Shown here piece by piece: positions 26,815 to 44,938 of a stretch of DNA of 64,000 nucleotides. Each line of letters begins with the position of its first letter. Position 1 is the stretch's first letter. Position numbers and translations under genes: made by a program. Source of the DNA: Paludibacter sp. (GTDB taxonomy: Bacteria; Bacteroidota; Bacteroidia; Bacteroidales; Paludibacteraceae). The notes under the pieces were generated by a model, which was not told where the DNA came from, did not search any database, and worked only from the letters and a program-made list of their open reading frames with translations. The stretch is taken from positions 62,001 to 126,000 of the forward strand of contig JARLGX010000031.1 in assembly GCA_031292575.1 (NCBI GenBank). Reading direction: 5' to 3'.

Positions 26815-26885
26815 TTTTTGGTAGAAATAGTATTATATAAGGATAAAAAAATATGTATTTTCTAATTTTCAATACTCTATTTTTG
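26815..26885 (+). promoter_or_regulatory. susC-1 promoter with shared PUL operator
   Basis: The -7 box TATTTTTG is at 26878-26885. AGTATTAT begins at 26829, exactly 49 bp upstream of the -7 box. It is preceded by TTTTTGGTAGAAAT and followed by a GATAAAAAAATATG stretch. The same arrangement with the same 49-bp spacing occurs before the second GH28 gene (40578/40627) and susC-2 (44882/44931). This is a candidate binding site for the HTCS. Confidence 0.65.
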
Positions 26886-26946
26886 CAATGTCGAAATGTA
26901 TTATTTCGCAAAAATAAATCAACCTTCTAATATTAAATTTAATTCC

Positions 26947-29900
26947 ATGAAAAGAAAAATCAATTTTCTAATGGCATTGCTCCTGTTTGGAGTATGTTTA
27001 GTTTCTGCTCAGCAGAATCTTTCTGTTTCTGGAGTTGTGACCGATGCAAGTGATGGAAGCCCAATGGTTGGCGTTTCTGTCATGTTAAAGGGAACAACGA
27101 ATGGGACAATTACTGACGTGAACGGGAAGTATAACCTGAATGCTCCCCAAGGTTCAACAATTATTTTCTCCTACATTGGGATGGAAAAGCAAGAAATTCC
27201 TGCCAGAAACAATGTAATTAATGTAAAACTTCAATCCGATTCCAGGTTGTTAGATGAAGTTGTAGCTGTTGGCTATGGTACCATGAAAAAGAAAATCATG
27301 ACCGGTGCCACAGTTCAGGTAAAAGGTGATGACTTACAAAAGCTGAATACCACTTCAAGTATGGCGGCCCTACAAGGAACTACATCAGGAGTTCAAATTA
27401 CTAAATCTGACGGTCAACCTGGTGATGGATTAAACGTAATTGTACGTGGTATTGGAACCATTGGTCAAACCCAACCACTTTATGTTGTTGATGGCGTCCC
27501 TGTTGGCAATAATATTGATTATTTATCTCCTTCAGATATTGAATCAATTGATGTTTTGAAAGATGCTACAGCAGCAATTTATGGATCGCGTGCTGCTAAT
27601 GGTGTAGTATTGGTGACAACCCGACAAGGCTCAAGCACGGGTAAAACAGTAGTTTCTTATGATGGTACTTATGGCGTCCAAAATGTATATAAAAAGTTGC
27701 CCTTATTAAATGCTCAACAATATTTAATGATAGCCAATGAGGCTGAAGTTAATTCGGGTAAATCTCCATTTTCAAATGCATATATACTTGGATCATCGTT
27801 AAATGCACTTAACCAAACTGTTCCTAATGTACCTTATGGAGCGCAGATTTTAGCTGGAACATATCACGGCACGAACTGGTTTGATGCTTTCACAAATAAA
27901 AACGCGCCAATACAAAGCCATGCTTTAAATATTGCCGGTGGAAATTCTAATGGAACATATACTCTAGGCGTTTCATATATCAATCAAGATGGTATAATGG
28001 GTGGTCCTGCACCTTCAAATTACGAGCGTTATAATATTCGTTTGAATTCAGACCACAAAGTAATTTCTAACAAAGATTTTACAGTTCTTAGAGTAGGTGA
28101 AAATATGGATATATCTTACAATCAAAAACAAGGTGTGTCTGGCTCAGGTAGCGTATATTGGAATGACGTGAACAATATGATAGTTTCAATACCTCTACAA
28201 CCACTTTATGACCCTTCAACTCCAGGTAAATACAGTTATTCAATTCCATTTGCTAACTTACAATCAAATCCTATTGGTGCGTTGATGAGTTCATCGAGAG
28301 CTAATAATATCTCGAAAAACTATAACCTTGTGGGTAATATTTATGCAGAATTACAACCAATTAGAAATTTAATATTTTTAACTCGTTTTAGTGTGAATGG
28401 ATCTGCAAGCAGCTATCGTGCGTTTACGCCTCAGTATAACTTAAGCTCCACAGCGATAAATGCAAACGATAATGCATCTCAAAGCATGTCAGCCGGATTG
28501 GGTTGGATATGGGAAAATACAGTATCGTATAAATTCTCAACAGACCAACACAACTTTTCATTTTTAGCAGGTACATCTGCTGAACGTGATGGTTTAGGTG
28601 AGTCAGTTAGCGGTCAAAATGCAATAGGTCTTTATCAGGATTTTGCACATGCATATTTGGTAAACTATCCAAATGTATCTACTGTATTAACTTCTGTTAC
28701 TGGTTCTCCTTGGGGTGTCAGTTCACTTAATTCCTATTTCGGAAGGGTTAATTATGACTACAAAGGAACTTATATGTTGTCAGCCATTGTACGTTCTGAT
28801 GGTTCTTCAAACTTTAACACAGGTCATCGTTGGGGAACTTTCCCATCATTCTCAGGAGGTTGGGTTGTGAGCAACGAATCTTTTATGAAAGAGGTTACAA
28901 CCATTGACTTTTTGAAGTTACGTGCTAGTTGGGGTCAAAACGGAAATAATGCAATTTCACCATTCCAGTATCTGGCACAAATTGGCACAAATTATAATTC
29001 AACAACAAATATTTATCCAAACTACTACTTTGGGGCTGATAACAAAACTGCACCAACTGTAGGTTCTTATCCAGCTATTTCGCCAAATTTAGATATTAAG
29101 TGGGAAACTTCAGAACAAACTGACTTAGGGTTGGATGCAACTTTGCTTAATAACCGTTTATCACTTACTTTTGATTACTACGATAAAGTAACAAAAGACT
29201 GGTTAGTAACAGCTCCGATACCAGCTGTAGTTGGAACATCAGCTCCAGCAATCAACGGAGGTAATATTGAAAATAAAGGGTATGAATTTAGTTTGGGTTG
29301 GAGAGATCATATTGGAGATCTGAAATATAATATCACTGGAAACATTTCTTTCAATCACAACGAAGTAACAAAAATCAATAATGGTACAGGATTTATAAAT
29401 GGACCTACTAATGTTTTTGGAAACTCTGATTTTTGGTACAGAGCTCAGGTAGGGTATCCAATTGGTTATTTCTATGGGTACAAAACTGATGGAATTTTCC
29501 AAAGCGTTGCACAAATTAAAGCTTATGTAAACAAAGCAGGTCAGGAAATTCAACCAAATGCAGTTCCAGGTGATGTTAAGTTTGTGGATTTAAATGGAAA
29601 TGGAACCATTGATGCTGCTGATCGAACAAAGATTGGTGATCCTAACCCTGCTTTTAATTATGGAGTTACAGCTAAATTTGAGTACAAAGGATTTGATTTG
29701 AGTATAGTGGGTACAGGTGTAGGTGGAAACCAGATTGCACAATGTACTGACTTTGAAGATCCTATTTTGTCAAATAATACGACAGATATTTTTGCTCGCT
29801 GGCATGGTGAAGGAACTTCTAATTTCTTACCTCGCGTAACTGCATCTCCAACGATTAATACCCAATATTTCTCAGATATTTATATGCGTAATGGAGACTA

Positions 29901-30135
29901 TTTCAAAATTGCCAATGTAACGTTGGGATATGATTTTGTAAAATTGTTCCGCAATTCAATTCCTGTAAATCAAGCTCGTTTATACGTACAGGTTCAAAAC
30001 CTTTACACCTTTACTAAATATTCAGGTATGGATCCTGAAGTGTCTTATGCTCCAAGCAGTTGGGCAAGTGGAATTGATATAGGTCAATATCCAAGCGCCA
30101 GAACAGTATTGGTAGGCGTCAATGTTAAATTTTAA
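26947..30135 (+). CDS. SusC/RagA-family TonB-dependent transporter 1
   Basis: A 1062-residue outer-membrane TonB-dependent transporter that takes up oligosaccharides with its SusD lid. I start at the ATG at 26947 (MKRKINFLMALLLFGVCLVS), the signal peptide shared with SusC-2; the frame is open 17 codons upstream but reads the leader. After the signal comes a carboxypeptidase-regulatory-like domain (about 22-105, VSGVVTDASDGSPMVGVSV), then the plug (about 115-225, with DVLKDATAAIYGSRAANGVV) and the barrel to the C-terminus (TVLVGVNVKF, ending in aromatic Phe). There is no N-terminal secretin/TonB-short signalling domain, so it is not anti-sigma controlled. susD follows after 12 bp. Confidence 0.96.
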   Translation: MKRKINFLMALLLFGVCLVSAQQNLSVSGVVTDASDGSPMVGVSVMLKGTTNGTITDVNGKYNLNAPQGSTIIFSYIGMEKQEIPARNNVINVKLQSDSRLLDEVVAVGYGTMKKKIMTGATVQVKGDDLQKLNTTSSMAALQGTTSGVQITKSDGQPGDGLNVIVRGIGTIGQTQPLYVVDGVPVGNNIDYLSPSDIESIDVLKDATAAIYGSRAANGVVLVTTRQGSSTGKTVVSYDGTYGVQNVYKKLPLLNAQQYLMIANEAEVNSGKSPFSNAYILGSSLNALNQTVPNVPYGAQILAGTYHGTNWFDAFTNKNAPIQSHALNIAGGNSNGTYTLGVSYINQDGIMGGPAPSNYERYNIRLNSDHKVISNKDFTVLRVGENMDISYNQKQGVSGSGSVYWNDVNNMIVSIPLQPLYDPSTPGKYSYSIPFANLQSNPIGALMSSSRANNISKNYNLVGNIYAELQPIRNLIFLTRFSVNGSASSYRAFTPQYNLSSTAINANDNASQSMSAGLGWIWENTVSYKFSTDQHNFSFLAGTSAERDGLGESVSGQNAIGLYQDFAHAYLVNYPNVSTVLTSVTGSPWGVSSLNSYFGRVNYDYKGTYMLSAIVRSDGSSNFNTGHRWGTFPSFSGGWVVSNESFMKEVTTIDFLKLRASWGQNGNNAISPFQYLAQIGTNYNSTTNIYPNYYFGADNKTAPTVGSYPAISPNLDIKWETSEQTDLGLDATLLNNRLSLTFDYYDKVTKDWLVTAPIPAVVGTSAPAINGGNIENKGYEFSLGWRDHIGDLKYNITGNISFNHNEVTKINNGTGFINGPTNVFGNSDFWYRAQVGYPIGYFYGYKTDGIFQSVAQIKAYVNKAGQEIQPNAVPGDVKFVDLNGNGTIDAADRTKIGDPNPAFNYGVTAKFEYKGFDLSIVGTGVGGNQIAQCTDFEDPILSNNTTDIFARWHGEGTSNFLPRVTASPTINTQYFSDIYMRNGDYFKIANVTLGYDFVKLFRNSIPVNQARLYVQVQNLYTFTKYSGMDPEVSYAPSSWASGIDIGQYPSARTVLVGVNVKF

Positions 30136-30147
30136 AAAATTACAGTT

Positions 30148-31917
30148 ATGAGAAAATTAAAAATATTTTTACTTACAGGTTTGGTTATTGGTCTTTTTGG
30201 ATGCTCTGAAAGCTTTTTGAATTCGACCGATCTTACCCAAAAAACCAGTGCGTCCTTTTATCATACGCCTACCGATATAGCTCAAGCGTTAGCTGCATGT
30301 TATGCTGTCGAACCATCTGTATTGCCATACCAAAGCATCTTTTTGCTTGCCAATCAGATGTCTGACGATTGTTTAGGCGGAGGTGGACAGAATGACCATT
30401 CAGGTCAATATGATCAATTTCAAACAACAAGTACCAATGGGTATGAGAGTCCGTGGGTAGCATATTATCAAGGTATTAATCGTACAAATACGTTGATTGC
30501 CAAATTTAGTCAGGTTACTGGCTGGACCAGCGATAATGCAAAAAATCAAGCATTGGGAGAAGCTTATTTTTTGAGAGCGAACTGTTATTTTAACCTTATG
30601 CGCATGTTTGGAGGCCCTATAAAGGGAGTAATGACCGGGGTTCCCTGTTTCACAGATCCAAATGCAACAACTTCACTGCGTGCTCCGGTTGATACAGTAT
30701 ATGCACGTATTGCCTCCGATTTAAAATCAGCCATTACTTTAATGCCTGGTGTGACTTATCCAAATATCGATAAGACTACATTAGGACATGCCACAAAATG
30801 GGCTGCTGAAGCTTTAATGGCACGTGTATATTTGTTCTATACAGGTGCTGTTTATGGAACGCATACAACTTTACCTTTACCAGGTGGTGGAACAATAGCT
30901 AAAGCTGATGTACAAACTTGGATAGCTGATTGTGCTGACAATAGTGGGCATGCTTTGATTCCTGATTTCCGTAACTTATGGCCATATTCCTATTCAACTA
31001 CTGGTGTAAAAGGAGGTTCGGATTATGGTTATGCCAAAGCAAATAATCTTTTATGGGTTGAAGGTAATGGAACAACAGGAACTGAAGCGAATAATACTGA
31101 AGATGTATTCTCAGTGCACTATTCTAATTTTGGAGGCTGGAATGGTGGGCTTAGTACAACCTATAGTAATCAGATAAACTTGTATTGTAGCTGGCGTAAT
31201 CAAACTCAATTACCTTTTGGTGATGGTTGGGGAGATGCCACAGTAGTTCCCACGGTTTATAGCAGTTGGGATAGTAACGACTTACGGAAACAAGGATCAA
31301 TTTGTAATGTAAACGATGCTACAGAAGGCATCACAGGTTTTGTATCGGGTTCGGACAAGCAATGGAACGAAACAGGCTATTGGCAAAAGAAATATATTGC
31401 TGTTAATATTAAAGCACCTGATGGTACTTTATATAATTATAGTTGTAAACTTTATGGAACTTCTATAAATTATCAAACGGATAATACACAAAATATAATT
31501 TATATTCGTTTTGCTGATGTATTATTGATGGCTGCTGAATTGGGTTGTCCTAAAGCTCAGGCATATTTTGATCAGGTTCATAAAAGGGGATACCCAACTT
31601 ATGTCGCCGGAACATTGCCTGCAACTTTGGCCAATATACAAGTTGAACGCCGTCATGAACTTGCTTTTGAAGGTATACGTTACTGGGATGAACTTCGTTG
31701 GGGTACTTTTGTAGCTGATCTTACCGCCGAAGCCGGAGCCCCTGAATTAAACGCCGGCGTGGCTGCAACCTATGATCCAAGCACTGCAATCAGCCGATTT
31801 AATTTAACTAAAGGTTTTTTACAAATACCTAATGATGAAATTGGACTGTCCAACGGGCAACTTGTTCAAAACGACGGATGGACGACAGGAGATAATACAA
31901 GTCAGTACCAACAATAA
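30148..31917 (+). CDS. SusD/RagB-family surface glycan-binding lipoprotein 1
   Basis: A 589-residue SusD homologue that closes over SusC-1 and delivers glycan to it. The signal peptide ends in lipobox LFGC (Cys19). Family features are the N-terminal FLNSTDLTQKTSASFYHTPT segment, the TPR-like helices with GEAYFLRANCYFNLMRMFGG and ATKWAAEALMARVYLFYTGA, and the C-terminal ERRHELAFEGIRYWDELRWG motif. It is coupled to susC-1 by position. The ligand cannot be read from the sequence. Confidence 0.95.
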   Translation: MRKLKIFLLTGLVIGLFGCSESFLNSTDLTQKTSASFYHTPTDIAQALAACYAVEPSVLPYQSIFLLANQMSDDCLGGGGQNDHSGQYDQFQTTSTNGYESPWVAYYQGINRTNTLIAKFSQVTGWTSDNAKNQALGEAYFLRANCYFNLMRMFGGPIKGVMTGVPCFTDPNATTSLRAPVDTVYARIASDLKSAITLMPGVTYPNIDKTTLGHATKWAAEALMARVYLFYTGAVYGTHTTLPLPGGGTIAKADVQTWIADCADNSGHALIPDFRNLWPYSYSTTGVKGGSDYGYAKANNLLWVEGNGTTGTEANNTEDVFSVHYSNFGGWNGGLSTTYSNQINLYCSWRNQTQLPFGDGWGDATVVPTVYSSWDSNDLRKQGSICNVNDATEGITGFVSGSDKQWNETGYWQKKYIAVNIKAPDGTLYNYSCKLYGTSINYQTDNTQNIIYIRFADVLLMAAELGCPKAQAYFDQVHKRGYPTYVAGTLPATLANIQVERRHELAFEGIRYWDELRWGTFVADLTAEAGAPELNAGVAATYDPSTAISRFNLTKGFLQIPNDEIGLSNGQLVQNDGWTTGDNTSQYQQ

Positions 31918-32003
31918 TCAAAACAAAAAAGAGATCAGGATTTTTTTCAAAGAAAAAGAATTCTTTTCTCTAATAGATTAAAAACTTAATTAATTATACA
32001 ATT

Positions 32004-32840
32004 ATGAAATATAAAATATGGTATAGCTTAGCTACATTAGTGTTGCTATTTGCTTCTTGTACAGCCATTGAAGACAGAGCAGCCATGGGTCCTGTTTTAG
32101 CGGCTTCACAAGTAAAAATTCAAATTGTTCAAAAAACAACTGGTGCTAACGCTGTTACAGTATTAGACGCAACGCCTGGAGCAATTATTTACTTTGATTG
32201 GGGAACAGGTACAGGCAAAAGTGCTGCTGCCGATGATTCAGTAAATTTTTATGTGCCTTTTGCAGGAACATTTAAATTGAAATATACTGCATTCTGTGCT
32301 GGTGGAACTGTAACAGACTCTACTACTTTCACTATTGCGGCAAATGATGAGGCTTATTTTGATCGTGATCCAGTTTGGAAAACTTTGACAGGTGGTGGCT
32401 CTGGTGAAACTTGGGTTTTTGGGACTGATGTTCCTGGTGGTATTGTAGGCGGTAATGGACCAATTAATAGTCCAGCTCCAGCTTGGTGGACTTTGAATGC
32501 TAGTTCAAGTGGCATTGGCAGCCAGTTAAGTTCCCCATGGTCTGTACAAGATCAGATTACTTGTAATCTTATTGGTGCGGCTAACTTCAGTGTTAAACAT
32601 TCAGATGGAAGTGTAACAAAAGGATTCTTTAATGTTGCTACTCCTGTTATTGACTCGGGAGATGGTGATCCAACTCCTTATCATGCTATTACAGTGTCTA
32701 ATGGTGCTCATTTTCCTTGGCCATCAGGCAATGGAATAGGCCAGTATCATTTTACAGTATTGACTGCGAAACATTTGTGTGTTCATGATTATAATGGATA
32801 TAATTGCGCATTGTATAAACAAATGGGAACAACTTGGTAA
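32004..32840 (+). CDS. PUL lipoprotein of unknown ligand (SGBP position)
   Basis: A 278-residue lipoprotein (lipobox FASC, then TAIEDRAAMG, an acidic stretch like those that send lipoproteins to the cell surface). Residues about 35-115 look like a PKD/Ig-type beta domain (ILDATPGAIIYFDWGTGTG is similar to PKD cores). The rest (about 120-278) is Trp-, Gly- and Ser-rich with KTLTGGGSGETWVFG and AHFPWPSGNGIGQYHF, which suggests a lectin-like module. It lies directly after susD-1, where surface glycan-binding proteins usually sit. I do not recognise the C-terminal domain. Two hairpins follow the stop codon. Confidence 0.85.
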   Translation: MKYKIWYSLATLVLLFASCTAIEDRAAMGPVLAASQVKIQIVQKTTGANAVTVLDATPGAIIYFDWGTGTGKSAAADDSVNFYVPFAGTFKLKYTAFCAGGTVTDSTTFTIAANDEAYFDRDPVWKTLTGGGSGETWVFGTDVPGGIVGGNGPINSPAPAWWTLNASSSGIGSQLSSPWSVQDQITCNLIGAANFSVKHSDGSVTKGFFNVATPVIDSGDGDPTPYHAITVSNGAHFPWPSGNGIGQYHFTVLTAKHLCVHDYNGYNCALYKQMGTTW

Positions 32841-32847
32841 TTTAAAA

Positions 32848-32880
32848 TTAGCAATCACCATTTAATGAGGTGATAGCTAA
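32848..32880 (+). terminator. Hairpin after the SGBP-like lipoprotein gene
   Basis: TTAGCAATCACC and GGTGATAGCTAA form a 12-bp stem with one mismatch, 8 bp after the stop codon. It is the first of two consecutive hairpins. Confidence 0.5.
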
Positions 32881-32907
32881 TAACAATAAAATCCAAAATT
32901 AAATGCA

Positions 32908-32952
32908 TAAAACCTATTCCAGTTGCTTTTTGCAATTAGAATAGGTTTTATT
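32908..32952 (+). terminator. Intrinsic terminator of the susC-1 operon
   Basis: AAAACCTATTC and GAATAGGTTTT form an 11-bp stem. The interior contains a further TTGC/GCAA pairing around five T. A T-rich ATTT tract follows. It lies just before the next gene at 32968, and marks the end of the susC-1, susD-1, lipoprotein unit. Confidence 0.7.
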
Positions 32953-32967
32953 TAAAAGAATCATTTT

Positions 32968-33918: not shown

Positions 33919-35442
33919 ATGAAAAAAAACGTTTTATTGATTATATTGTTTGTCAATATTTTAGGAGTTGCAAAAGCAACCAGTTACAATGTAATAGACT
34001 TCGGGGCTAAAAATAATGGCAAAGAAATAACCACAATTGAAATTCAGAACGCCATCGATCAATGTAATAGAGATGGAGGAGGGCTTGTTACTGTTCCCCG
34101 TGGAGAGTATCTGGTTGGAACGTTGAATCTAAAATCAAACGTTGAATTTCATTTTGAAAAGGGAGCAATTCTAAAAGCTTCAACCGACCTATCACATTAT
34201 CAGAAACATAATGAAAATCTGGCAGGAGTTTTTTATACTGAAGATGCTAACAATATATCAATAACCGGAGATGGCACAATTTTCGGTCAGGGTATGAATT
34301 TTATGTTTGTAGATAGTGCCAAAGTTATTCGTGGTGAAGTAACTAATTATATTCGTCAGAAATCAGATTTCCGAAAAGTAACATCTGGTGTGGGAGATGG
34401 GCCACTTTATCCAAAAGACAGATTTCACCAAATGATTATTTTTAGTAACTGTACCAATGTTGTTTTGTCGGATTTTAAATGTGTGGATGCACCTTATTGG
34501 ACTTTTCTGATCGTTCATTGCGATATGGTGAAAGTGAATAAACTATCAATCAGTAACAACTTGTTAATCCCAAATAGCGATGGACTTGATATACTTTCCA
34601 GCAGTGATGTCAACGTTTCCGATTGTATGTTTTCCTGCGGAGATGATGCCATTGTGTTGGGAGGTTACGCTACACATTTTGGCGATCCTGGATTTAAAGG
34701 CATATTGAAACCATCGAAAAACATTAACGTGTCGAATTGTATTTTGCACTCCCGTTCAAGTGCCATCCGAATCGGCGGTTGGGATCAAAACCATATGTCA
34801 AACTACAATTTCAACAATATTACCATCGTGGATTCAAACTGCGGAATTAACCTAACCGTTCGCGACTCAGGTTCAATACAAAATGTGAATTTTAGTAACA
34901 TAAGAATTGAAACCAGAATGCATACCGGCGATTGGTGGGGTAATGGTGAACCGATTAAAATATCTGCAATGCGTGGTGTTCCCAACGATAAAATCGGGAT
35001 TATTAAAAATATAAATTTCACGAATGTTACTTGTAGTGGTGAAAATTCTATTCTTTTGTACGCATCACCTGAAACTAAACTGCAGAATATATATTTTACA
35101 AACTTTGATTTTGAATTAAAAAAAGGACCATTGGAGGATGTCAGTGGTGGAAACTTTGATTTAAGACCCAACATTGTAAAAGGAATGGAAATTTATAAAT
35201 CGGATGTTCCTGTAGTTTACATTGAAAACGCAGATAATGTGTGTTTTAACGAGGGTAGTATAACTTGGAAAAGAGTTGATAAGCCTTATTATACAAATGC
35301 TATCGAGGCTGTTAAGGTCAACAACCTGAAACTAAATAATTTGACAGCAGTTTCATCACCCTCAAATCCAACATTGCAGGCTATTTCATTGAAAGAATGT
35401 ACGAATATAATTAATAATGGTGTCTTACATCTTACAAAGTAA
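33919..35442 (+). CDS. GH28-like beta-helix glycoside hydrolase 1
   Basis: A 507-residue secreted enzyme (signal peptide about 1-20) with the pectate-lyase/GH28 beta-helix. The opening YNVIDFGAKNNGKEITTIEI and GGGLVTVPRGEYLVGTLNL are the family N-terminus. The three catalytic acids are kept: NSDG (Asp221) and GDD (Asp242, Asp243). The other polygalacturonase signatures are changed: the G-H-G segment is replaced by SRSSAIRIGG, and there is no RIK. This suggests a substrate other than plain polygalacturonate. It resembles the protein at 40697-42241 along its whole length, including TGDWWGNGEPI. Cell location is periplasm or surface. Confidence 0.85.
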   Translation: MKKNVLLIILFVNILGVAKATSYNVIDFGAKNNGKEITTIEIQNAIDQCNRDGGGLVTVPRGEYLVGTLNLKSNVEFHFEKGAILKASTDLSHYQKHNENLAGVFYTEDANNISITGDGTIFGQGMNFMFVDSAKVIRGEVTNYIRQKSDFRKVTSGVGDGPLYPKDRFHQMIIFSNCTNVVLSDFKCVDAPYWTFLIVHCDMVKVNKLSISNNLLIPNSDGLDILSSSDVNVSDCMFSCGDDAIVLGGYATHFGDPGFKGILKPSKNINVSNCILHSRSSAIRIGGWDQNHMSNYNFNNITIVDSNCGINLTVRDSGSIQNVNFSNIRIETRMHTGDWWGNGEPIKISAMRGVPNDKIGIIKNINFTNVTCSGENSILLYASPETKLQNIYFTNFDFELKKGPLEDVSGGNFDLRPNIVKGMEIYKSDVPVVYIENADNVCFNEGSITWKRVDKPYYTNAIEAVKVNNLKLNNLTAVSSPSNPTLQAISLKECTNIINNGVLHLTK

Positions 35443-35450
35443 AATACAAA

Positions 35451-35561
35451 GATATTTTAAAAGATTTCGTAGAAATTTTAGCCGAAGAATTTGAACGAGA
35501 TAAATTTAAGAACAGCGACCTATTAATATTTCTATTCCCTCTTGACGAGGCTTCTTTCTGA
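35451..35561 (+). pseudogene. Possible short coding remnant after the GH28-like gene
   Basis: A 36-codon stretch without a start codon and ending in TGA looks coding: it begins DILKDFVEILAEEFERDKFK and ends with LDEASF. It is in another frame than the GH28 gene and cannot be its extension. I do not recognise it. It may be a fragment left by rearrangement, or chance. Confidence 0.25.
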
Positions 35562-35642
35562 AAAGAATGCAGGATTGAAGCCATTACTTATGATATCATA
35601 ATCTTTAATTTCGCCTTTAGCTTAAAAAGATATAATAAAAAT

Positions 35643-38033
35643 ATGAGAAATAAATTATTCTTCTCAGTGCTGTCAATCGCTTTTTTGATTGCCCTACCAA
35701 ACCTTGCCAAAGCATCCGTGACTTCTTTCACTAAAGAACACGATGGTGTGCTTTTTACGTTGGACAATGGACTATTAAAAGTGAAAGTTTGTACAGACAA
35801 TGTGGTTGAAGTGAAATACACCGAACTACCTGTTTTTATGAACAAACCATCGTTGGTGGTAACGAATGAATGGAAAACGATTCCAACTTTTACTGTAGCT
35901 GAAAATGACAATGAAATTATAATTACAACTGCAAAGTTACATGTAATCGTAAGCAAGAAAACGAACTCAGTAAAATATACCGATTTAAATGACAAAGTTA
36001 TTCTAAGTGAAGATGATTCTCAAAGCAAATCAATGACTTCAGCCACAATTGCTGGTATTGATGTTTATAACTGCACATCAGAGTTTAAGTCGCCTCTCGA
36101 TGAATCTCTTTATGGACTGGGATGTCATCCGGAAGATTCTCTTTCCATTAATTACAAAGGACGCAATCAGGATATGGCCATCAAGTACATGACTGGAGCA
36201 ATTCCAGTACTTTTATCTACAAAAGGGTACGGACTTCTTTGGGATAATTACTCGGCTTCCGATTTCTATGGTGCAGAAGATGGAAATACTAAATTCAAAT
36301 ATGTCTCAGAAAGTGGTAATATGGTAGATTATTATTTTATCTATGGTCCAAGTTTTGATAATATTATTGCTTCTTACCGTAATGCTACCGGCAATGCACC
36401 AATGTTCCCAAAATGGTCATTTGGTCTTTTTCAATCGCAAGACAGATATAAAAGTCAGGCTGAAATTTTATCAGTGAAAGATAAATACCGTAACAATAAA
36501 ATCCCTGTAGATTGTATTGTTCAGGACTGGTTTTACTGGGAACCGAATGTTATTGGATCTCACGTAATGTATCCTGAAAGATATCCTGATCCAAAAGCGA
36601 TGGTGGATGAATTGCACAAGTCACATATACATGGTATGATTTCTATTTGGCCAGTATTCTCAAAAGGTACAATACCTTACAACCAAATGTCTCATTCAGG
36701 AGGTATGACGGACATTTTATGGGATAATGCAATGACACATATGCTTGATAGTTATTATGATGCTCACAGTGCTCAGGCTCGACAGTTGTATTGGAAACAA
36801 GCTTATGACAGCCTGGTTGGACGGTATGATTGGGATGCATGGTGGGTAGACCAATGTGAACCTGATAATGGTAATAATCTTGATTTGAGAAGGCAAAGCC
36901 ATTTTGCTATTGGACGTGGTATTGACTATATGAATACCTATTCTTTGATGCATTCAACCGGTTTGTATGATAATTGGAGAAAAGACTTTCCAAATAAACG
37001 GGCTTTTTTCCTGATTCGTCAGGCTTTTGCCGGTCAACAGCGTAACGCAACAACTTTATGGTCATCAGACATCAGTTGTACATGGAAAGCCTATAAAGCT
37101 CAGATTCCACAAGGAATAAATGCCTGTACATCTGGCATGCCTTACTGGACTTCAGACATAGGTGGCTATCATTTGAACTGGCTATCACCCGATTGGACGA
37201 CACCTACAAACCGAGAATTATTTACACGTTGGTTTCAGTTTGGAGCATTTAGTCCAATTTTTAGAATTCATGGAAAAGGTGAAAGAGCCTTATTCTCTGA
37301 CAATTGGGATGTGAAAACAAAAGCTATTTTATTGAATTACGACAACCTGCGTTACCGTTTAATGCCTTATATTTATTCACTTTCATGGAAAATAACCAAT
37401 GAAGGTTACACCATCATGCGATCATTAGCATTTGATTTCAGGAATGATCCTGCTATTAAATCAATTCCAGATGAATATATGTTTGGTACAGCATTTCTTG
37501 TAAGCCCTGTAACTGAGCGTATGTACAGTCTTCCAAACAGTAAAAATATTAAAAAAACAAGAAAAGTTTACCTTCCGAAATCAACACTGTGGCTCGATTT
37601 CTGGACAGGGAAAAAGTATGAGGGCGGACAGACTATTGACGCTTCAGCTCCAATTGAAACACTTCCACTTTATATCAAAGCGGGATCAATTGTGCCCATG
37701 GGACCATATTTACAATATGCTACCGAGAAGCCTGCTAATCCGCTTGAACTTAGAATATATCCGTATGCTAACGGGAGTTTCACTCTTTACGAAGATGAGA
37801 ACAATACCTATGATTACGAAAAAGGTGTTTTTGCCACCATTTCTTTTAAATGGAACGATACAAAACATGAGTTGATTATTGACAAGCGTCAAGGTAGTTT
37901 TCCCGGGATGTTGAATGATAGAACTTTCAAAATTATCATCGTTAACGCAACAAAAGGAACAGGAGTTGAAATGACAAAGAATCCTGACAAAACAGTTCAA
38001 TACGATGGAAATGAACAAGTCATTCAATTTTAA
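35643..38033 (+). CDS. GH31 family, alpha-xylosidase-like
   Basis: A 796-residue secreted GH31 (signal peptide about 1-25). N-terminal beta-sandwich to about 240, then the (beta/alpha)8 barrel. The nucleophile is Asp403 in DAWWVDQCEPDNG, a form typical of the alpha-xylosidase-type subgroup rather than the WxDMNE of starch alpha-glucosidases. The acid/base is Asp476 in LWSSDISCTW. The segments PKWSFGLFQSQDRYKSQAE and QFGAFSPIFRIHGKGERALF support the family. C-terminal beta domains run from about 640. It would release alpha-xylose (xyloglucan) or a similar alpha-linked sugar from oligosaccharides in the periplasm; alpha-glucosidase is an alternative. Confidence 0.88.
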   Translation: MRNKLFFSVLSIAFLIALPNLAKASVTSFTKEHDGVLFTLDNGLLKVKVCTDNVVEVKYTELPVFMNKPSLVVTNEWKTIPTFTVAENDNEIIITTAKLHVIVSKKTNSVKYTDLNDKVILSEDDSQSKSMTSATIAGIDVYNCTSEFKSPLDESLYGLGCHPEDSLSINYKGRNQDMAIKYMTGAIPVLLSTKGYGLLWDNYSASDFYGAEDGNTKFKYVSESGNMVDYYFIYGPSFDNIIASYRNATGNAPMFPKWSFGLFQSQDRYKSQAEILSVKDKYRNNKIPVDCIVQDWFYWEPNVIGSHVMYPERYPDPKAMVDELHKSHIHGMISIWPVFSKGTIPYNQMSHSGGMTDILWDNAMTHMLDSYYDAHSAQARQLYWKQAYDSLVGRYDWDAWWVDQCEPDNGNNLDLRRQSHFAIGRGIDYMNTYSLMHSTGLYDNWRKDFPNKRAFFLIRQAFAGQQRNATTLWSSDISCTWKAYKAQIPQGINACTSGMPYWTSDIGGYHLNWLSPDWTTPTNRELFTRWFQFGAFSPIFRIHGKGERALFSDNWDVKTKAILLNYDNLRYRLMPYIYSLSWKITNEGYTIMRSLAFDFRNDPAIKSIPDEYMFGTAFLVSPVTERMYSLPNSKNIKKTRKVYLPKSTLWLDFWTGKKYEGGQTIDASAPIETLPLYIKAGSIVPMGPYLQYATEKPANPLELRIYPYANGSFTLYEDENNTYDYEKGVFATISFKWNDTKHELIIDKRQGSFPGMLNDRTFKIIIVNATKGTGVEMTKNPDKTVQYDGNEQVIQF

Positions 38034-38204
38034 TCGAAATAAAGAAAACATTCTTTTATTCTTATTTCTGATAATCATCGGAGTGCAAACATAATAATCC
38101 ATTTTCTATCATGTACAAAGGGCAAACGCATTTCAACGAAAAGTGCTTTTTGTTTATTAGAATATAAATTTTAGAAATAGTCGTATAACCAAAACAATAT
38201 CTAA

Positions 38205-40196
38205 TTGAAAATGAGAAATAAACTAACAGGATTAATTGCTGTGTTGTTGATATCAACAATGGTCAGTGCACAAAAAACAAAGGATTTTGTTCTAAAATCA
38301 CCCGATGGTAATCTGACACTACAAGTTGCGTCAGGACAAAAACTGCTTTGGTCGGTACAGCTAAAGGGAAAACAAATTATTGCTCCTTCGGATATTGCTC
38401 TCGAACTTGAAAATGGTGAAGTACTTGGCGAAAGAGTGAGAATAAATTCATCAAAGACAGAAAAAGTTAATAGTTCTTTTGCCACATTAAATTACAAAAA
38501 GTCAACAATCACTGATGTTTACAACGAACTTACATTGAATTGTAAGAACGATTTTGGTGTGAAATTCCGCGTGTACAATGATGGAGTGGCATATCGTTTT
38601 TTTACAACAAAAAAAAATGAAATAATTGTAAAAAACGAAATTGCTAATTTCAATTTCACTGAGGATTACAAAGCGTTCATACCGTACATGTGGGATTACC
38701 GGGATGGGGCAAAATTTAATTCATCATTTGAAGCACTTTACAAAGAAAGTCCAATTTCAAAATTTGCACCGGATTCATTGGCATTTTTGCCTTTGTTGGT
38801 TGACGAAGGTGACAATAATAAAGTGGTGATTATAGAAGCTGATTTGGAAGATTACCCAGGCATGTATCTGAATATGAATGATACTCACAAAGGTTTTATG
38901 GGAGTTTATGCACCTTACCCACTCGAAACAAAAATGGGTGGATATGAGAATATGAATGTTATTCCAACAAAAAGGGCCGATTATATTGCAAAAACAACTG
39001 GAACACGTAGTTTCCCCTGGCGTGCAGTAATTATTAGCCAAAGCGACCGAGAATTGCTGAATAATGATATGGTTCAAAAACTAGCCTCACCCTCAAGAAT
39101 TGCTGATGCCTCATGGATTAAACCCGGACAAGCTTCGTGGGATTGGTGGAGTGATTGGAATATATCTCATGTCGATTTCAAAGCAGGGTATAACAACGCA
39201 ACTTACAAATACTACATTGATTTTGCGGCGGCCAATAAACTGAAATACATTGTTATGGATTGGGGTTGGTCTAGCCACACCGATATTATGAATGTCATTG
39301 CCAATGTTGATTTGCAGGAATTGGTGGACTATGGAAAGCTAAAAGGAGTTGGAATATTTCTTTGGGCATCGTGGTACGCAGTTTCGCAAGAAATGAATCA
39401 GGCATTTCCCAAATATTCAAAAATGGGTATTAAAGGATTTAAAATTGATTTCTTCGACAGGGATGACCAATTGGTAGTTGCTTCTACTTATGCAATTGCC
39501 CAAAAGGCAGCCGAATATCATTTAATGGTTGATTATCATGGAATCTACAAACCAACGGGTTTACAAAAAACGTATCCGAATGTGATTGGTTTTGAAGGAG
39601 TCAAAGGACTGGAAAATTATAAATGGGCAACCGAAGATCAGCCTCGTTATACGGTTACCATTCCATATATCCGCATGATGGCTGGTCCAATGGATTATAC
39701 ACCGGGTGCAATGCGTAATGCTAACAAAACAAATTATCGTCCAATCGAAGGAATGCCAATGAGTATGGGTACTCGTTGCAATCAACTGGCTATGTATGTT
39801 GTTTTTGATGCACCATTACAAATGTTGTCCGACAATCCTTCTACTTATATGAAAGAGCAGGAATGCACTGATTTTATTTCCAGCATTCCTACAACTTTTG
39901 ATGAAACGGAGGCTTTGGATGGAAAAGTTGGCGAGTTTACTGCCATTGCACACAGAAAAGGTGATGTGTGGTTTATAGGAGCAATGACCAATTGGACAGA
40001 GCGAGAACTGACACTCGACTTTTCATTCTTGCCAAAAGGAAATTATCAGGCAGTAGTATTTAAAGATGGTGTAAATGCCGATCGCGATGGCACTGATTAT
40101 AAAAAAGAAACTATTAAAATAGCCTCGGGAGCTAAGTTGTCTATTCATCTTGCAGCGGGTGGAGGCTGGGCTGCCAGAATAGAAAGAATAAACTAA
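38205..40196 (+). CDS. GH97 family, retaining type (probable alpha-galactosidase)
   Basis: A 663-residue secreted GH97 (signal peptide ending MVSAQ). N-terminal beta-sandwich (about 25-290), barrel (about 300-560) and C-terminal beta domain. Asp415 in GFKIDFFDRDDQ is where retaining GH97 members (characterised as alpha-galactosidase in Bacteroides) carry the nucleophile; inverting SusB-type alpha-glucosidases lack it. Glu464 in VIGFEGVKG is a good candidate for the acid/base. Alpha-galactosidase activity would suit the galactomannan genes further on, but other alpha-linked sugars are possible. A hairpin follows the gene. Confidence 0.88.
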   Translation: MKMRNKLTGLIAVLLISTMVSAQKTKDFVLKSPDGNLTLQVASGQKLLWSVQLKGKQIIAPSDIALELENGEVLGERVRINSSKTEKVNSSFATLNYKKSTITDVYNELTLNCKNDFGVKFRVYNDGVAYRFFTTKKNEIIVKNEIANFNFTEDYKAFIPYMWDYRDGAKFNSSFEALYKESPISKFAPDSLAFLPLLVDEGDNNKVVIIEADLEDYPGMYLNMNDTHKGFMGVYAPYPLETKMGGYENMNVIPTKRADYIAKTTGTRSFPWRAVIISQSDRELLNNDMVQKLASPSRIADASWIKPGQASWDWWSDWNISHVDFKAGYNNATYKYYIDFAAANKLKYIVMDWGWSSHTDIMNVIANVDLQELVDYGKLKGVGIFLWASWYAVSQEMNQAFPKYSKMGIKGFKIDFFDRDDQLVVASTYAIAQKAAEYHLMVDYHGIYKPTGLQKTYPNVIGFEGVKGLENYKWATEDQPRYTVTIPYIRMMAGPMDYTPGAMRNANKTNYRPIEGMPMSMGTRCNQLAMYVVFDAPLQMLSDNPSTYMKEQECTDFISSIPTTFDETEALDGKVGEFTAIAHRKGDVWFIGAMTNWTERELTLDFSFLPKGNYQAVVFKDGVNADRDGTDYKKETIKIASGAKLSIHLAAGGGWAARIERIN

Positions 40197-40203
40197 ATAT
40201 ACT

Positions 40204-40241
40204 ATGGAACTCGTTCTGTCTTTATACAGAGCAAGTTCCAT
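40204..40241 (+). terminator. Hairpin after the GH97 gene
   Basis: TGGAACTCGTTCTGT and ACAGAGCAAGTTCCA pair over 15 positions with one mismatch and one wobble, 8 bp after the stop codon. There is no T tract. The remaining spacer to 40696 holds the next operator and promoter; I see nothing else in it. Confidence 0.55.
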
Positions 40242-40563
40242 TCGATAATTTACAAACAGTTGTTCTCAATCGAATGAGTTGGTTTCATTGCAGAGAAGGA
40301 TTTCTCAAAGATATACTTGGAAAGTTTTTTTTTGGTTACACTCTTTCAAAGTTCAAAGGGAACATATTTTTCTAACGAATTAGCAGATAAATCAATTCAA
40401 TTTACTGCAAAAGAGTTGATGATACTTTTCTAAAATTTGCTATTGTTTTTCTTTCAATAAGAGAGAAAATAATAAAATCAAATAGACTTATTGAATTGAG
40501 AAATAGGACAGGAATTCATAGGTTTGTCACCTGCATCTTTATTGATTAGAAGTAAAACAGTGA

Positions 40564-40634
40564 TTTTTAGGTGAAATAGTATTATTATGTGATAAAATAA
40601 TATGTTTTAGTTGCGGTTAAATGAGTTATTTTTG
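40564..40634 (+). promoter_or_regulatory. Promoter with shared PUL operator before the second GH28 gene
   Basis: TATTTTTG at 40627-40634, with AGTATTAT starting at 40578, 49 bp upstream. TTTTTAGGTGAAAT precedes it and GATAAAATAATATG follows, as at susC-1. This marks a separate transcription unit for the GH28-like and clan GH-A genes. Confidence 0.65.
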
Positions 40635-40696
40635 TAAAGTATCTTCGTGCTTTTATCTATCAATTCTAATAACAATTCAACTGTTAATCAATTCTC

Positions 40697-42241
40697 ATGG
40701 TTAAATCAAGATTCATCTTTCTCTCTATTTCTCTTTTCTGCTTTCTTCAAATTCAATCTCAATCTTTTAATATCACAAATTATGGAGCTGTTGGAGATGG
40801 AAAAACGCTCAATACTCAAGCTGTTCAAAAGACAATTGACGCTTGCAATCAAACCGGTGGTGGTCAGGTAATTATTCCTAAAGGGGTTTTTATTATTGGA
40901 ACAATTTATTTGAAAAGTAATATAGATTTACATCTTGAGTCAGGATCAATACTACGTGGAAGTGCAAACATTAACGATTATGCTCCATACAACGGAGTAC
41001 ATTACGGAATGATTTACGGTGAAAACGCTGAGAATATCACTATCTCCGGTTCGGGGAATATTGATGGCAATGGTGATAGTTTCTTTGACCTTACGCATGC
41101 AAAAAAGATTGAATGGGGTGGTACACAATACACCCGCCAAAAAGCAGATTTTCGCAAAGTACTTGATGGTGGTATAGGTGATGGACCAATTGTGCCAAAA
41201 ATTCGTCCCTATCAAATGCTTATTTTTAGTAGTTGCAAAAGAGTAACATTGAAAAATATTTTGATTACAAAGCCTCCATTCTGGACGATGCTTTTTGCCG
41301 ATTGCGATGGAGTTCTTGTCGATGGAATCCGGCTTTGGACCAATATGCTCGCACCCAATGCCGATGGTATCGATGTTGCAAGCTGCAATAATGTGATTAT
41401 TTCTAATTCTGATATTCGTTCGGGCGATGATGCCATTGCCATTGTTGGATACGATAGTCATTTCGAAATTCCGGGCTTCAAAAAATTACGTCATTCATCA
41501 GGGAATATTATTATAACCGGTTGTAATTTACAATCATACTCAAGCGGTATCCGCATTGGCTTCCTTGATCAAAATACAGTTCGGAATATCAACATTTCCA
41601 ATTGTAACATTACCAATTCTACTCGTGGAATTGGCATTTTCTTACGAGACGAAGGTTCGTTGGAGAATATAAATGTTTCCAATTGTAATATTGAAACTAA
41701 ACTTCGCACCGGCGATTGGTGGGGAAATGGAGAGCCTATTCACATTTCGGCCATTCGTGGAAAAGCCGATGTGAAATTGGGAACAATCAAAGATGTAAAG
41801 TTCAATAATATAACTTGCCGCGGCGAAAACGGTATTTTGGTTTATGGTTCTGACGAAAGCGTAATTGAAAATGTATCATTTAATCACGTAACTTTCGAAT
41901 TGACCGATTCAAAACTGAATGATGTTGCTGGTGGTAACATTGACTTGCGAGGATGCTCTGACCCTAAAAGCCAACTTTTTCAACATGACATTCCGGGTTT
42001 ATTTGCCCAACATGTAAATGGATTGACAATTAATGATTTCCAGTTGGAATGGACTGGAACGCGAATGCCTTACTTTTCGAACGGAATTGAAGTCTCCGAT
42101 TTTAGTGGTTTGCGAATTTCAAACTTTGTTGGTACAGGTTCGCCGATAAACAAGGATGCGTTTCCAATATATCTTGAAAATGGGAAGCAGGCAAAAATTG
42201 ATACTAAGATTGGAGTAAAAGAAGTTAATCTCACGAAATAA
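40697..42241 (+). CDS. GH28-like beta-helix glycoside hydrolase 2
   Basis: A 514-residue secreted paralogue of the GH28-like protein at 33919-35442 (signal peptide about 1-22). The opening FNITNYGAVGDGKTLNTQAV is the family N-terminus. Catalytic acids are NADG (Asp223) and GDD (Asp244, Asp245). The G-H-G element is replaced by YSSGIRIGF, as in the paralogue, and TGDWWGNGEPI is shared. It is first in its own operator-controlled unit. An exo-acting pectinase on a decorated or non-pectic chain is possible. The substrate is not known. Confidence 0.85.
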   Translation: MVKSRFIFLSISLFCFLQIQSQSFNITNYGAVGDGKTLNTQAVQKTIDACNQTGGGQVIIPKGVFIIGTIYLKSNIDLHLESGSILRGSANINDYAPYNGVHYGMIYGENAENITISGSGNIDGNGDSFFDLTHAKKIEWGGTQYTRQKADFRKVLDGGIGDGPIVPKIRPYQMLIFSSCKRVTLKNILITKPPFWTMLFADCDGVLVDGIRLWTNMLAPNADGIDVASCNNVIISNSDIRSGDDAIAIVGYDSHFEIPGFKKLRHSSGNIIITGCNLQSYSSGIRIGFLDQNTVRNINISNCNITNSTRGIGIFLRDEGSLENINVSNCNIETKLRTGDWWGNGEPIHISAIRGKADVKLGTIKDVKFNNITCRGENGILVYGSDESVIENVSFNHVTFELTDSKLNDVAGGNIDLRGCSDPKSQLFQHDIPGLFAQHVNGLTINDFQLEWTGTRMPYFSNGIEVSDFSGLRISNFVGTGSPINKDAFPIYLENGKQAKIDTKIGVKEVNLTK

Positions 42242-42321
42242 TCTCTACAGGGTTACACAATACATCGAAAAACAAAATCAGATGAAAAATAATATTAATG
42301 TTCAACTAAAAATAATACATC

Positions 42322-44052
42322 ATGCTGAAGCACTCACAAAAATTTTCAAGATTTTCGATCTTTTTTATTTTAGGTCTTTTATATTCTTGTCAGGGAAAAG
42401 GAAATGAGCCAGTAAAACCTCCAACTAACAATGACACTACGATTGTTGCCGGAGTAGATCCAACAATAGCTAATACAATTGGGTTCTTTTTAGATAATTG
42501 GCAACCAAAAACATTTAGTGTCCCTACTTATGATCAAACAACTGTTTCAACAACCCAGCCTACGATAATAAGTATAAATGCCACATCCATAATAACTAAA
42601 ATTCCATTGTCAGTATTTGGACAAAATGCAAATATGTGGATGGGACCGGTTGCTGATAATACCAGTTTCATTAATCCGATAAACGATTTACAACCCCACA
42701 TTATTCGCTTTCCAGGTGGAAGTGCAAGCGATGCTTATTTCTGGAATGAACCTCAAGGCGTTAATCCTCCGGATGCTCCTGCTAAAATATTCGATTTAAA
42801 TGCTGTAGCTCAAGATCCCGGATATAATTATGGGATGACTAATGCTAACTGGCAATGTTCGTTAGACAATTATTACAGTATGTTGGCTAAAACTAATAAC
42901 AAGGGAATTATTACCGTCAACTTTGGTTATTCACGTTATGGTACAGGTCCAAACCCGGTTGCTAAAGCTGCTCATCTTGCTGCCGATTGGGTACGCTACG
43001 ATAATGGCCGTACTCAACTTTGGGAAATTGGTAATGAAAATTTCGGCAGTTGGGAATGGGGTTATCGTATTAATACAGCAGCTAATCAGGATAATCAACC
43101 CGAATTCATGACTGGAGCTGAATATGCTAAACACTTTCTTGTCTTTGTTGACTCTATGCAGGTTGCTGCAAAAGAAGTTGGCAATAATATAAAAATTGGA
43201 GCCGTTACGGTTGAAACACCGGCAACTGAATCGTGGCAAACTATCTGTACAAAAACTTGGAACGCGGGCATGATGACTGGTATTAATAATAAAGCTGATT
43301 TTTATGTCGTACATGATTATTTTACTGCTAGCACCAATGTTACAGCTCCTGTGATTCTTTCAAGTGCAACAACAGTTCCAAACACTGTAATTAACTTTGT
43401 ATCCCAGGCTTTGGCATTAAATAATGCAATTATAAAACCAATAGTGTTGGATGAGTGGAACTTTTTTGCCTCCGGTTCCAAACAAATGGTATCCAATATA
43501 AGTGGTCTTTTTTCAGTTTTGGTTTTGGGTGAAGCATTAACTAACAAATATGGTATGGCAGCTCGTTGGGATTTGTTAAATGGGTGGAGCAATGGAGATG
43601 ATATGGGGATGTTCAGTGCCGGTGATGAGCCAAATGTTGCCAAATGGACTTTACGACCAAGCTTTTATTATATGTATTTTCTACAAAAAATGCTTGGTGA
43701 CAGAATGGTTACTTCAACAAGCACAACGAATATTATGTGTTATGCGTCGACCTATTCATCTGGACAGTTAAATGTAAATCTTGTGAACACGAGTACTGCG
43801 GATATTAATGTACAATTAAATCTTAAAAACTTTTATAGAGGTAGCCGCTATTACTGGTATAGTCTTCAGGGTGGGACTGATGACCCTCAATTTTCGCGTC
43901 AGGTATTTGTAAACGGAGTAGGCCCAACTCAGGTTGCCGGAGGTCCTTCCACTTATAGTAGCATTCATGCACGTTCAGCAAGTGCTGTAAATGGGATATT
44001 TGTTACAGTACCTGCCCAGGGAGCAGTTATGATGGTTATTGAAAAGAAGTAA
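42322..44052 (+). CDS. Clan GH-A glycoside hydrolase lipoprotein (GH51/GH39-like)
   Basis: A 576-residue lipoprotein (lipobox LYSC near residue 23). The barrel has the clan GH-A pair: acid/base Glu239 in WEIGNENFGSWEWG and nucleophile Glu378 in PIVLDEWNFF. IIRFPGGSASDAYFW in the N-terminal barrel and a C-terminal beta domain (about 470-576) resemble alpha-L-arabinofuranosidases and their relatives. The exact family (GH51, GH39, GH30 or GH79) cannot be settled from motifs. It follows the second GH28-like gene by 80 bp and is probably co-transcribed. The lipid anchor suggests surface or periplasmic-face action. Confidence 0.75.
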   Translation: MLKHSQKFSRFSIFFILGLLYSCQGKGNEPVKPPTNNDTTIVAGVDPTIANTIGFFLDNWQPKTFSVPTYDQTTVSTTQPTIISINATSIITKIPLSVFGQNANMWMGPVADNTSFINPINDLQPHIIRFPGGSASDAYFWNEPQGVNPPDAPAKIFDLNAVAQDPGYNYGMTNANWQCSLDNYYSMLAKTNNKGIITVNFGYSRYGTGPNPVAKAAHLAADWVRYDNGRTQLWEIGNENFGSWEWGYRINTAANQDNQPEFMTGAEYAKHFLVFVDSMQVAAKEVGNNIKIGAVTVETPATESWQTICTKTWNAGMMTGINNKADFYVVHDYFTASTNVTAPVILSSATTVPNTVINFVSQALALNNAIIKPIVLDEWNFFASGSKQMVSNISGLFSVLVLGEALTNKYGMAARWDLLNGWSNGDDMGMFSAGDEPNVAKWTLRPSFYYMYFLQKMLGDRMVTSTSTTNIMCYASTYSSGQLNVNLVNTSTADINVQLNLKNFYRGSRYYWYSLQGGTDDPQFSRQVFVNGVGPTQVAGGPSTYSSIHARSASAVNGIFVTVPAQGAVMMVIEKK

Positions 44053-44881
44053 GACGGATATTTAATTCTTTCCAATGATTTTCGATGACATAACTATATA
44101 AATATGAATGTAATTATGTAAGTAAAAAATGAGAAAATAAAGAACTTTCTGAAGAATAAAAAGAATTAAACCACTCATTATCCTAACGCTTTTTTAGAGA
44201 TTATCATGGGAGCTAATCTTTTAAAAAGATTAAAAATTGCAGTAAGCATTGACAATTCATTATTGGGAATCTCCAAAAATATTGGTTTGAAGGCGTTTTA
44301 TTCAAAATAAAGTGAATCAGAGTCCCTGTATGTAAATTTCAATACTGGAATATATCCATATTTCACAAATTAGTATGATTTCGAAATAAGGATGAGGAAC
44401 AAAAATCTCATTTTATGTATAGCCTTAAGTAGTACATTTATACTCTGCCGATACTCTACTGATGCTCCACTGATGCTCCACAGATGCTCCACAGTTCAGC
44501 AGTCGCAAGATTGAGATATTTAGATTAAGAATTGGAGCTCAAAACTAAAAAATTATAGCTACTTGGAGCGCATTAATTTACTCAATCAATATCACTTGAT
44601 AATTGTTTAAAATTTGAATCAGTTATTGGTTTCTAACACTGATTTCATTCACTGGAGGAAATATATATTAAATATTGCATAAATACTTTCCCCGTTATTG
44701 GCGATTTAGTTATACTAATTTTACATATTTTCATTAAAATGCCGCGATAAAAAATATGTTTTTGTATTGAAGACTAATTAATTTTAGGGTAGAAAAAGTA
44801 CAACTCAAACTTACTAATAATTAAGGCTATACTTAATTTAAGTGATTTTGTGATTAAAAAGGATAGAGTGTAAGTTCAAAA
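44053..44881. other. Long spacer before susC-2
   Basis: A 946-bp gap precedes susC-2 (this entry covers its non-promoter part). It holds an 11-bp tandem array (44439-44493) and a 34-codon ATG frame at 44206-44310 (starts MGANLLKRLKIAVSIDNSLL) that I cannot support as a gene. The rest is AT-rich without a recognisable feature. Confidence 0.5.
44439..44493. repeat. 11-bp tandem repeat array
   Basis: Five units of 11 bp in register: TATACTCTGCC, GATACTCTACT, GATGCTCCACT, GATGCTCCACA, GATGCTCCACA. Units become more alike from left to right. The array is intergenic, upstream of susC-2. Confidence 0.85.
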
Positions 44882-44938
44882 AGTATCATATAAAGCTAAA
44901 AAAATATAGTTTTCATTGTGAATGTTACTCTATTTTTG
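44882..44938 (+). promoter_or_regulatory. susC-2 promoter with shared PUL operator
   Basis: TATTTTTG at 44931-44938, with AGTATCAT beginning at 44882, 49 bp upstream. It is followed by a CTAAAAAAATATAG stretch that matches the susC-1 operator. The sequence from about 44970 on into the gene also matches the susC-1 leader. Confidence 0.65.

Follow-up and report, generated by a model that had tools for sequence, protein, structure and literature searches.

Three promoters of a Paludibacter beta-mannan locus share a tandem operator that probably belongs to a soluble AraC-family regulator

Results

The locus and the element shared by its promoters

The window analysed here is a stretch of 64,000 nucleotides from Paludibacter sp. 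(assembly GCA_031292575.1, contig JARLGX010000031.1, positions 62,001 to 126,000 of the forward strand); it carries a beta-mannan polysaccharide utilisation locus (PUL) with two susC/susD pairs, between which lie two GH28 genes, a GH31 gene and a GH97 gene (GH, glycoside hydrolase family), and a complex I gene cluster lies upstream of the PUL. Three promoters of the locus share a DNA element, AGTATYAT-N41-TATTTTTG, and its recurrence in this genome, in a set of 48 genomes of the genus and in loci of other genera strongly supports the view that it is a real regulatory element held at a fixed distance from the -7 box. On the comparative evidence it is very likely the operator of a cytoplasmic one-component activator of the AraC/XylS family, encoded outside the window, that would control beta-mannan utilisation. 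The nearest regulator, a hybrid two-component system (HTCS) protein encoded beside the PUL, very probably does not bind it. The features of the window are the following.

26821..26857, plus strand: operator 1, half-sites at 26821-26836 and 26842-26857, with a 21-bp period
26878..26885, plus strand: -7 box TATTTTTG of promoter 1 (susC1, susD1 and the following genes)
40570..40606, plus strand: operator 2, half-sites at 40570-40585 and 40591-40606
40627..40634, plus strand: -7 box TATTTTTG of promoter 2 (GH28 gene at 40697-42241 and a gene for a 576-residue protein at 42322-44052)
44874..44910, plus strand: operator 3, half-sites at 44874-44889 and 44895-44910
44931..44938, plus strand: -7 box TATTTTTG of promoter 3 (susC2 operon)
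26896..31917, plus strand: susC1 open reading frame (ORF; 26896-30135) and susD1 (30148-31917)
33919..40196, plus strand: GH28 (33919-35442), GH31 (35643-38033) and GH97 (38205-40196) genes, for which no element of their own was found
44999..62818, plus strand: beta-mannan operon (susC2, susD2, surface glycan-binding protein, TIG protein, GH26, SASA esterase, GH26, a protein matching GH26 and GH5, GH2, GH130)
22103..26461, plus strand: HTCS gene (Reg_prop, Y_Y_Y, HisKA, HATPase_c, Response_reg, HTH_18)
21943..22007, minus strand: separate operator assigned to the HTCS, with TTTGCACAG at 21999-21991, TTTCCACAT at 21978-21970 and the -7 box TACATTTG at 21950-21943
20535..21893, minus strand: divergent gene with a DUF4957 match (DUF5123 stays below its cut-off), which the HTCS operator is likely to control

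The likelier start of susC1 is an inner ATG at 26947 (MKRKINFL).

The pattern AGTATYAT-N41-TATTTTTG has three matches of 57 bp in the window, at 26829, 40578 and 44882, and each begins exactly 49 bp before an identical -7 box (26878, 40627 and 44931), just as the initial annotation of this DNA had reported; the boxes are of the TAnnTTTG type found in Bacteroidota primary-sigma promoters. None of 100 dinucleotide shuffles of the window contains a match. Throughout the genome to which the window belongs (3.46 Mb in 40 contigs) the pattern occurs at these three sites only, all of them in the mannan PUL, and the reversed pattern, used as a control, has no match there; the spread over unrelated genes that would have spoken against the element was not seen. 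In a matrix scan of the window the three known sites, all of which belong to the training set, are the only matches above 14 bits, and at that threshold the element was not found before the HTCS, GH26, GH31 or GH97 genes, which agrees with its reported absence there. The core without the -7 box (AGTATYAT-N7-TAAAWWAATATR) proved unspecific, with 43 matches in the same genome at up to three mismatches and 46 for the reversed control. An extra match to this core with one mismatch, at C37:138227 on the minus strand, has no TAnnTTTG at the right distance and was treated as chance; the next gene on the same strand is a 364-residue ORF about 300 bp away.

Anatomy of the operator

The conserved block begins 8 bp earlier than initially annotated and is made of two 16-bp half-sites in direct repeat, 21 bp apart, the second of which ends 20 bp before the -7 box. 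Half-site 1 reads GTAGAAATAGTATTAT, GGTGAAATAGTATTAT and GTTCAAAAAGTATCAT at sites 1, 2 and 3, respectively, and half-site 2 reads GATAAAAAAATATGTA, GATAAAATAATATGTT and GCTAAAAAAATATAGT. The strict pattern finds 15 sites in 11 of the 48 genus genomes (reversed control, none of 48), and their alignment yields the consensus GTnGAAAAAGTATCAT-N5-GnTAAAAAAATATGTT, followed after 20 bp by TATTTTTG. Sites compared with themselves at offsets of 8 to 44 are most alike at 21 (identity of 0.58 in the 15 strict sites, against 0.48 at the next best offset, 18, and a mean of 0.32), and the same offset is the best in 15 diverged sites (0.62, against 0.50 for the next), a result reached in none of 2000 shuffles, with the reservation that these sites are related to each other. 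The two halves of the consensus are identical at 10 of 16 positions, which on its own is a modest test, as 149 of 5000 shuffles get there. All these repeat tests are made on sites that are kin, and those found by the pattern inherit part of the repeat from it. Less biased evidence for a direct repeat comes from departures from the matrix that keep it: in genus g33 the second half has GTACTTG or GTATTTG, with its G at 21 bp from that of the first, and one site in G182 has AAACTATCATTTTT in both halves. Judged from sequence, the element has the form of an AraC-type tandem operator, that is, two direct repeats about 21 bp apart near a promoter.

The spacing is strictly kept. Although gaps of 6-8 and 15-31 bp were permitted, 14 of the 15 strict sites measure 57 bp and one 58 bp (this last, in L094, was left out of matrix training, for which the other 14 were used), and the geometry thus holds in the promoters of related genomes, a comparison that the initial annotation had proposed. 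The promoter elements described for Bacteroidota are TAnnTTTG at -7 and TTTG at -33 (available text of PMC7366714); at the -33 position of the present promoters there is only a T-rich stretch at the right distance, within or beside half-site 2.

Sites 1 and 3 of the window are only partly independent of each other. Their promoters agree in 110 of 124 columns (89%) over the stretch that begins with the -7 box and reaches into the susC leader (26878-27001 and 44931-45053), which would be expected if promoter pieces had been copied along with the susC genes and the element merely reflected a shared ancestry without function. The 100 bp upstream of these sites have, in contrast, diverged to chance level (identity of 0.48, where random pairs average 0.49) while the element was kept; site 2, the independent one in the window, stands before an unrelated GH28 gene; and the spacing is preserved both in the genus and in the fixed-length matrix matches of other genera. 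Descent without function is, in consequence, an extremely improbable explanation, and the scans of the genome, of the genus and of other genera give strong support to the initial view of the block as a functional operator that the promoters share, at a constant distance to the -7 box. The leader common to promoters 1 and 3 may itself be a conserved 5' untranslated element. Many of the 15 aligned sites have a sequence resembling GTCGGAAT after the -7 box.

A candidate regulator at the end of the mannan operon

The contig that holds the window (C13) ends 186 bp after a GH94 gene, 4.4 kb past the window, and between the window and this end encodes an alpha-galactosidase and a major facilitator superfamily (MFS) transporter as well as the GH94 protein. 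In relatives, genes for these same three kinds of protein follow GH130 in the operon, and after them come genes for a cellobiose-2-epimerase-like protein, GH5 and a soluble regulator of the AraC family. The order GH94, epimerase, GH5, AraC, recognised by comparison with the proteins of our genome, is present in nine of 12 genus loci with the AraC gene (L090, L102, L103, L104, L106, L133, L166, L170 and L172), and in four of these (L090, L103, L166 and L170) the alpha-galactosidase and MFS genes are also visible, each time within one stretch; in G079 (L185) epimerase, GH5 and AraC stand at a contig start, and the AraC gene is flanked by different genes in G175 and G180. In the genome under study, epimerase, GH5 and AraC genes are carried by the end of another contig, C29, and by analogy with the relatives its mannan operon would run from C13 across the break into them. 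A short string, AATGCGAATCAG, is found near both contig ends (L100, C13:118000-130387; L130, C29:140000-153838), possibly the trace of a repeated mobile element.

The regulator encoded on C29 is a 302-residue ORF (G000:C29:150340-151248), of about 294 residues if read from the likelier ATG. Its C-terminal part is an AraC-type DNA-binding domain (Pfam HTH_18, E 3.7e-22; HTH_AraC, E 1.6e-17), the part before it matches no Pfam family, no kinase or receiver domain was found in the ORF, and no NCBIfam cut-off was reached among the 25 families listed out of 30. Ten of the nearest genomes encode the protein at 75-81% identity, and the residues NLSNFNR of its second helix-turn-helix are the same in all 11 aligned proteins (the ORF of G178 was not part of this alignment), where the HTCS reads DPRYFSR. 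The initial annotation had counted the HTCS as the only regulator in the window. This holds for AraC-type helix-turn-helix proteins and for the ORFs scanned against Pfam; it misses the separate AraC protein that lies just outside, past the contig end. In one relative (L103, in G144, 9807-11806), two tandem copies of the AraC gene stand at the end of the mannan operon.

The element follows the AraC gene in the genus

When up to three mismatches are allowed, the element has 49 sites in 19 of the 48 genus genomes, again with none in the reversed control. All 11 genomes with the strict element encode the AraC protein at no less than 67% identity, counting G171 by a contig-end fragment of 89%. AraC orthology was counted at two cuts. 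At 59% identity, a cut chosen after a first look, the element (up to three mismatches) is found in 17 of 20 genomes with AraC and in two of 28 others (Fisher 3.8e-8), G152 being an exception at this cut, as it has the element and an AraC protein of only 52% identity; at E 1e-40 the figures are 18 of 26 and one of 22 (p = 3.8e-6). Both Fisher values overstate the evidence, the genomes having shared ancestry. In 24 of the 30 sites examined (out of 49), the next ORF on the same strand starts within 125 bp. Seven of 20 further genus loci scanned with the matrix have matches above 14 bits.

The element in other genera

Over the 150 family genomes, the strict pattern has matches in ten and its reversed control in two, so that a single short match elsewhere can be chance. 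Diverged sites are what the matches in G024, G055 (two, of 25 and 41 bits) and G075:C100 (between AraC and susC) look like; those in G004, G031, G060 and G075:C110 lack the conserved body and were set aside as probable chance matches.

We also scanned loci held out of training, around AraC homologs of 44-65% identity, taken from 16 of the 22 other-genus genomes with an AraC match (left out were G024, seen before, and G021, G092, G118, G142 and G147). In 12 of the 16, against 0.47 expected, the best matrix position of the locus lies before susC or before the gene that comes after AraC; this count is to be read knowing that the target window of 700 bp upstream was set after a first look and that several of the loci come from close, near-identical relatives. 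The matches in L253, L244 and L242 score below zero, and the misses are L239, L250, L251 and L252. In nine of the 16 loci the gene after AraC is susC itself, and a diverged copy of the element stands between the two.

These observations bear on whether some other, unlinked regulator (one more HTCS, a paralog of AraC or a protein of another family) could bind the element, the AraC gene merely travelling with the mannan genes. There is no shortage of candidates, as our genome has 20 HTH_18 matches, 19 of them above the cut-off, and several facts fit such a scenario, weigh against assigning the element to the AraC protein, or do both; the limits attached above to the counts also weigh against that assignment. 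G161 (82% complete) carries two sites and no AraC match at E 1e-40; G160, G163 and G165 (83-87% complete) encode AraC proteins of 66-81% identity and have no element at up to three mismatches; a different HTCS, 24% identical to that of the window over 995 residues and divergently oriented, starts about 2.7 kb from the mannan element in G130 (L089, 16778 onward); and another HTCS gene adjoins the AraC gene in G160. To these we add that the regulator sits on another contig than the PUL, so that operon continuity in our own genome is inferred, and that for one element of the training set (G144:C1:697755-697819, L048; 54 bits) no protein gene within 1.2 kb makes a plausible target; this site may be a relic or control a small RNA. 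An unlinked regulator is nonetheless improbable, given that the AraC gene lies directly 5' of susC in nine of 16 other-genus loci with the locus-best matrix match between them, that the element tracks AraC over the 48 genomes, and that the 21-bp tandem form suits an AraC-type protein.

The HTCS has an operator of its own

The initial annotation had named the HTCS as the natural candidate, its C-terminal AraC-type domain binding the element and the protein activating the three promoters. Its gene ends 360 bp upstream of site 1, and the operators predicted for Bacteroides HTCS proteins upstream of PUL genes are likewise direct repeats, at an average distance of 21 bp (Ravcheev et al. 2013; available text of PMC3878776). 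The galacto-/glucomannan PUL of Bacteroides ovatus, moreover, is tied to an HTCS, BACOVA_02097, that binds and senses manno-oligosaccharides (accessible part of PMC3243724). With orthology set at 60% identity (identities drop from 61% to 42% at this point, and 12 candidates were scored per genome), the strict element co-occurs weakly with HTCS orthologs (seven of 16 genomes with one versus four of 32 without, p = 0.027; at up to three mismatches, nine of 16 versus ten of 32, p = 0.12), and in G170 the ortholog and the element share a contig, about 23.5 kb apart, which also counts against the AraC protein as binder.

Neither property expected of an HTCS operator, presence beside HTCS orthologs or an occurrence that follows the HTCS, was found for the AGTATYAT element. 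It is absent from all nine HTCS ortholog loci inspected (67-77% identity, 11-24 kb each); these loci also lack the window's mannan genes, and a GH28-like protein is encoded nearby in two. Ten of the 19 genomes with the element have no HTCS ortholog of at least 60%; one of these is G001, assembled as a single contig and carrying two elements, where none of the 12 candidates scored is an HTCS ortholog and the best match is 34% identical over part of the length. In G001, G079 and G144 the element occurs in the stretches read around the mannan PUL, with no HTCS beside it. Conversely, five genomes that have the HTCS and lack AraC (G122, G140, G150, G154 and G181) all have the HTCS operator described next, and none has the AGTATYAT element.

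This second operator lies in the divergent promoter that separates the HTCS gene from its DUF4957 neighbour (22007-21943, minus strand), where TTTGCACAG and TTTCCACAT are 21 bp apart and the -7 box comes 49 bp after the start of the first half; its pattern is TnCACA...TCCACAT in a 21-bp tandem. A matrix from seven promoters (that of the window and those of six loci) finds a site in eight of the nine ortholog loci, namely the six trained on, L064 and L069, the last before a susC-like gene; L063 has none. Weaker matches lie before a susC-like gene in L068 and before genes of other kinds in L065 and L067. The pattern is found in 16 of 16 HTCS genomes and in one of 32 others (G171), with none of 48 for the reversed control (p = 7.5e-12), a co-occurrence that is partly built in, as its letters come from seven promoters of the same HTCS family; in 14 of the 16 genomes the site is within 300 bp of the HTCS start. 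On this matrix the three AGTATYAT sites score -21.5, -11.3 and -20.7. Taken together, the comparisons indicate that the HTCS is very probably not the binder of the AGTATYAT element, and we hold its control of the three promoters to be highly improbable.

Discussion

The arrangement described here recalls AraC, RhaS and XylR of E. coli, one-component activators that bind tandem direct-repeat half-sites, the downstream one beside the promoter. Like them, the C29 protein has a C-terminal HTH_18/HTH_AraC domain; it differs in that its N-terminal part matches no Pfam family and in that the promoter is of the Bacteroidota kind, with TAnnTTTG at -7. Binding, activation rather than repression, and the nature of the inducer are all inferred. 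A dimer of the AraC protein would occupy the two half-sites, which, being 21 bp or two helical turns apart, would present themselves on one face of the DNA. As 20 bp separate the end of half-site 2 from the -7 box, this half-site would cover the place of a -33 element and could allow the protein a direct contact with RNA polymerase, in a class II-like activation. The predicted targets are susC1-susD1 with the genes that follow, the GH28 gene with its 576-residue neighbour, and the operon from susC2 to AraC. If promoter 3 does head an operon ending in AraC, the activator gene would be part of its own regulated operon, creating a positive feedback. Possibly, the inducer is a cytoplasmic mannoside (a mannose-containing disaccharide) or mannose, a guess prompted by the neighbouring GH130 and epimerase genes.

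The PUL of B. ovatus discussed above concerns the same class of substrate; there an HTCS is involved, whereas here the evidence favours an AraC-family protein. Compared with the Bacteroides HTCS operators, the likely binder in our case is a separate, soluble AraC protein, and the HTCS encoded next to the PUL is assigned a different operator built on the same geometry. The beta-mannan PUL of Muricauda sp. MAR_2010_75 likewise combines an HTCS with an AraC-type factor, FG28_RS02325, which is expressed, and on galactomannan all PUL proteins except the HTCS were upregulated; this factor resembles the C29 protein in family and context, and the available text describes no operator for it (PMC9860051). 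None was seen either in the accessible portions of PMC10766802, PMC12125979 and PMC11253607, and the literature searched, most subscription papers lying outside it, contained no operator for a soluble regulator of the AraC type that controls beta-mannan use in Bacteroidota. The present work offers a predicted one. PUL regulators are often assigned by proximity, and at this locus proximity very probably leads to the wrong protein; comparative genomics yields two distinct operators for two AraC-type proteins, both directly testable.

The scope of the putative AraC regulon may be wider than beta-mannan. Tentatively, and with somewhat less than an even chance of being right, we suggest that one AraC activator also runs genes for GH28 pectin-type enzymes, as at site 2 and, in another genus, in G055, as well as genes in G174, G175 and G180, while the neighbouring HTCS, whose operator matches in geometry, controls a gene of its own; the two AraC-type regulons would then be interleaved and told apart only by the letters of their half-sites. 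On a short contig of G055 (C114, L051), the strict element precedes a GH28 gene, as does site 2 in the window. G174, G175 and G180 have six, six and nine elements, respectively, numbers that suggest a widened regulon, and those examined precede susC, GH130 and other genes.

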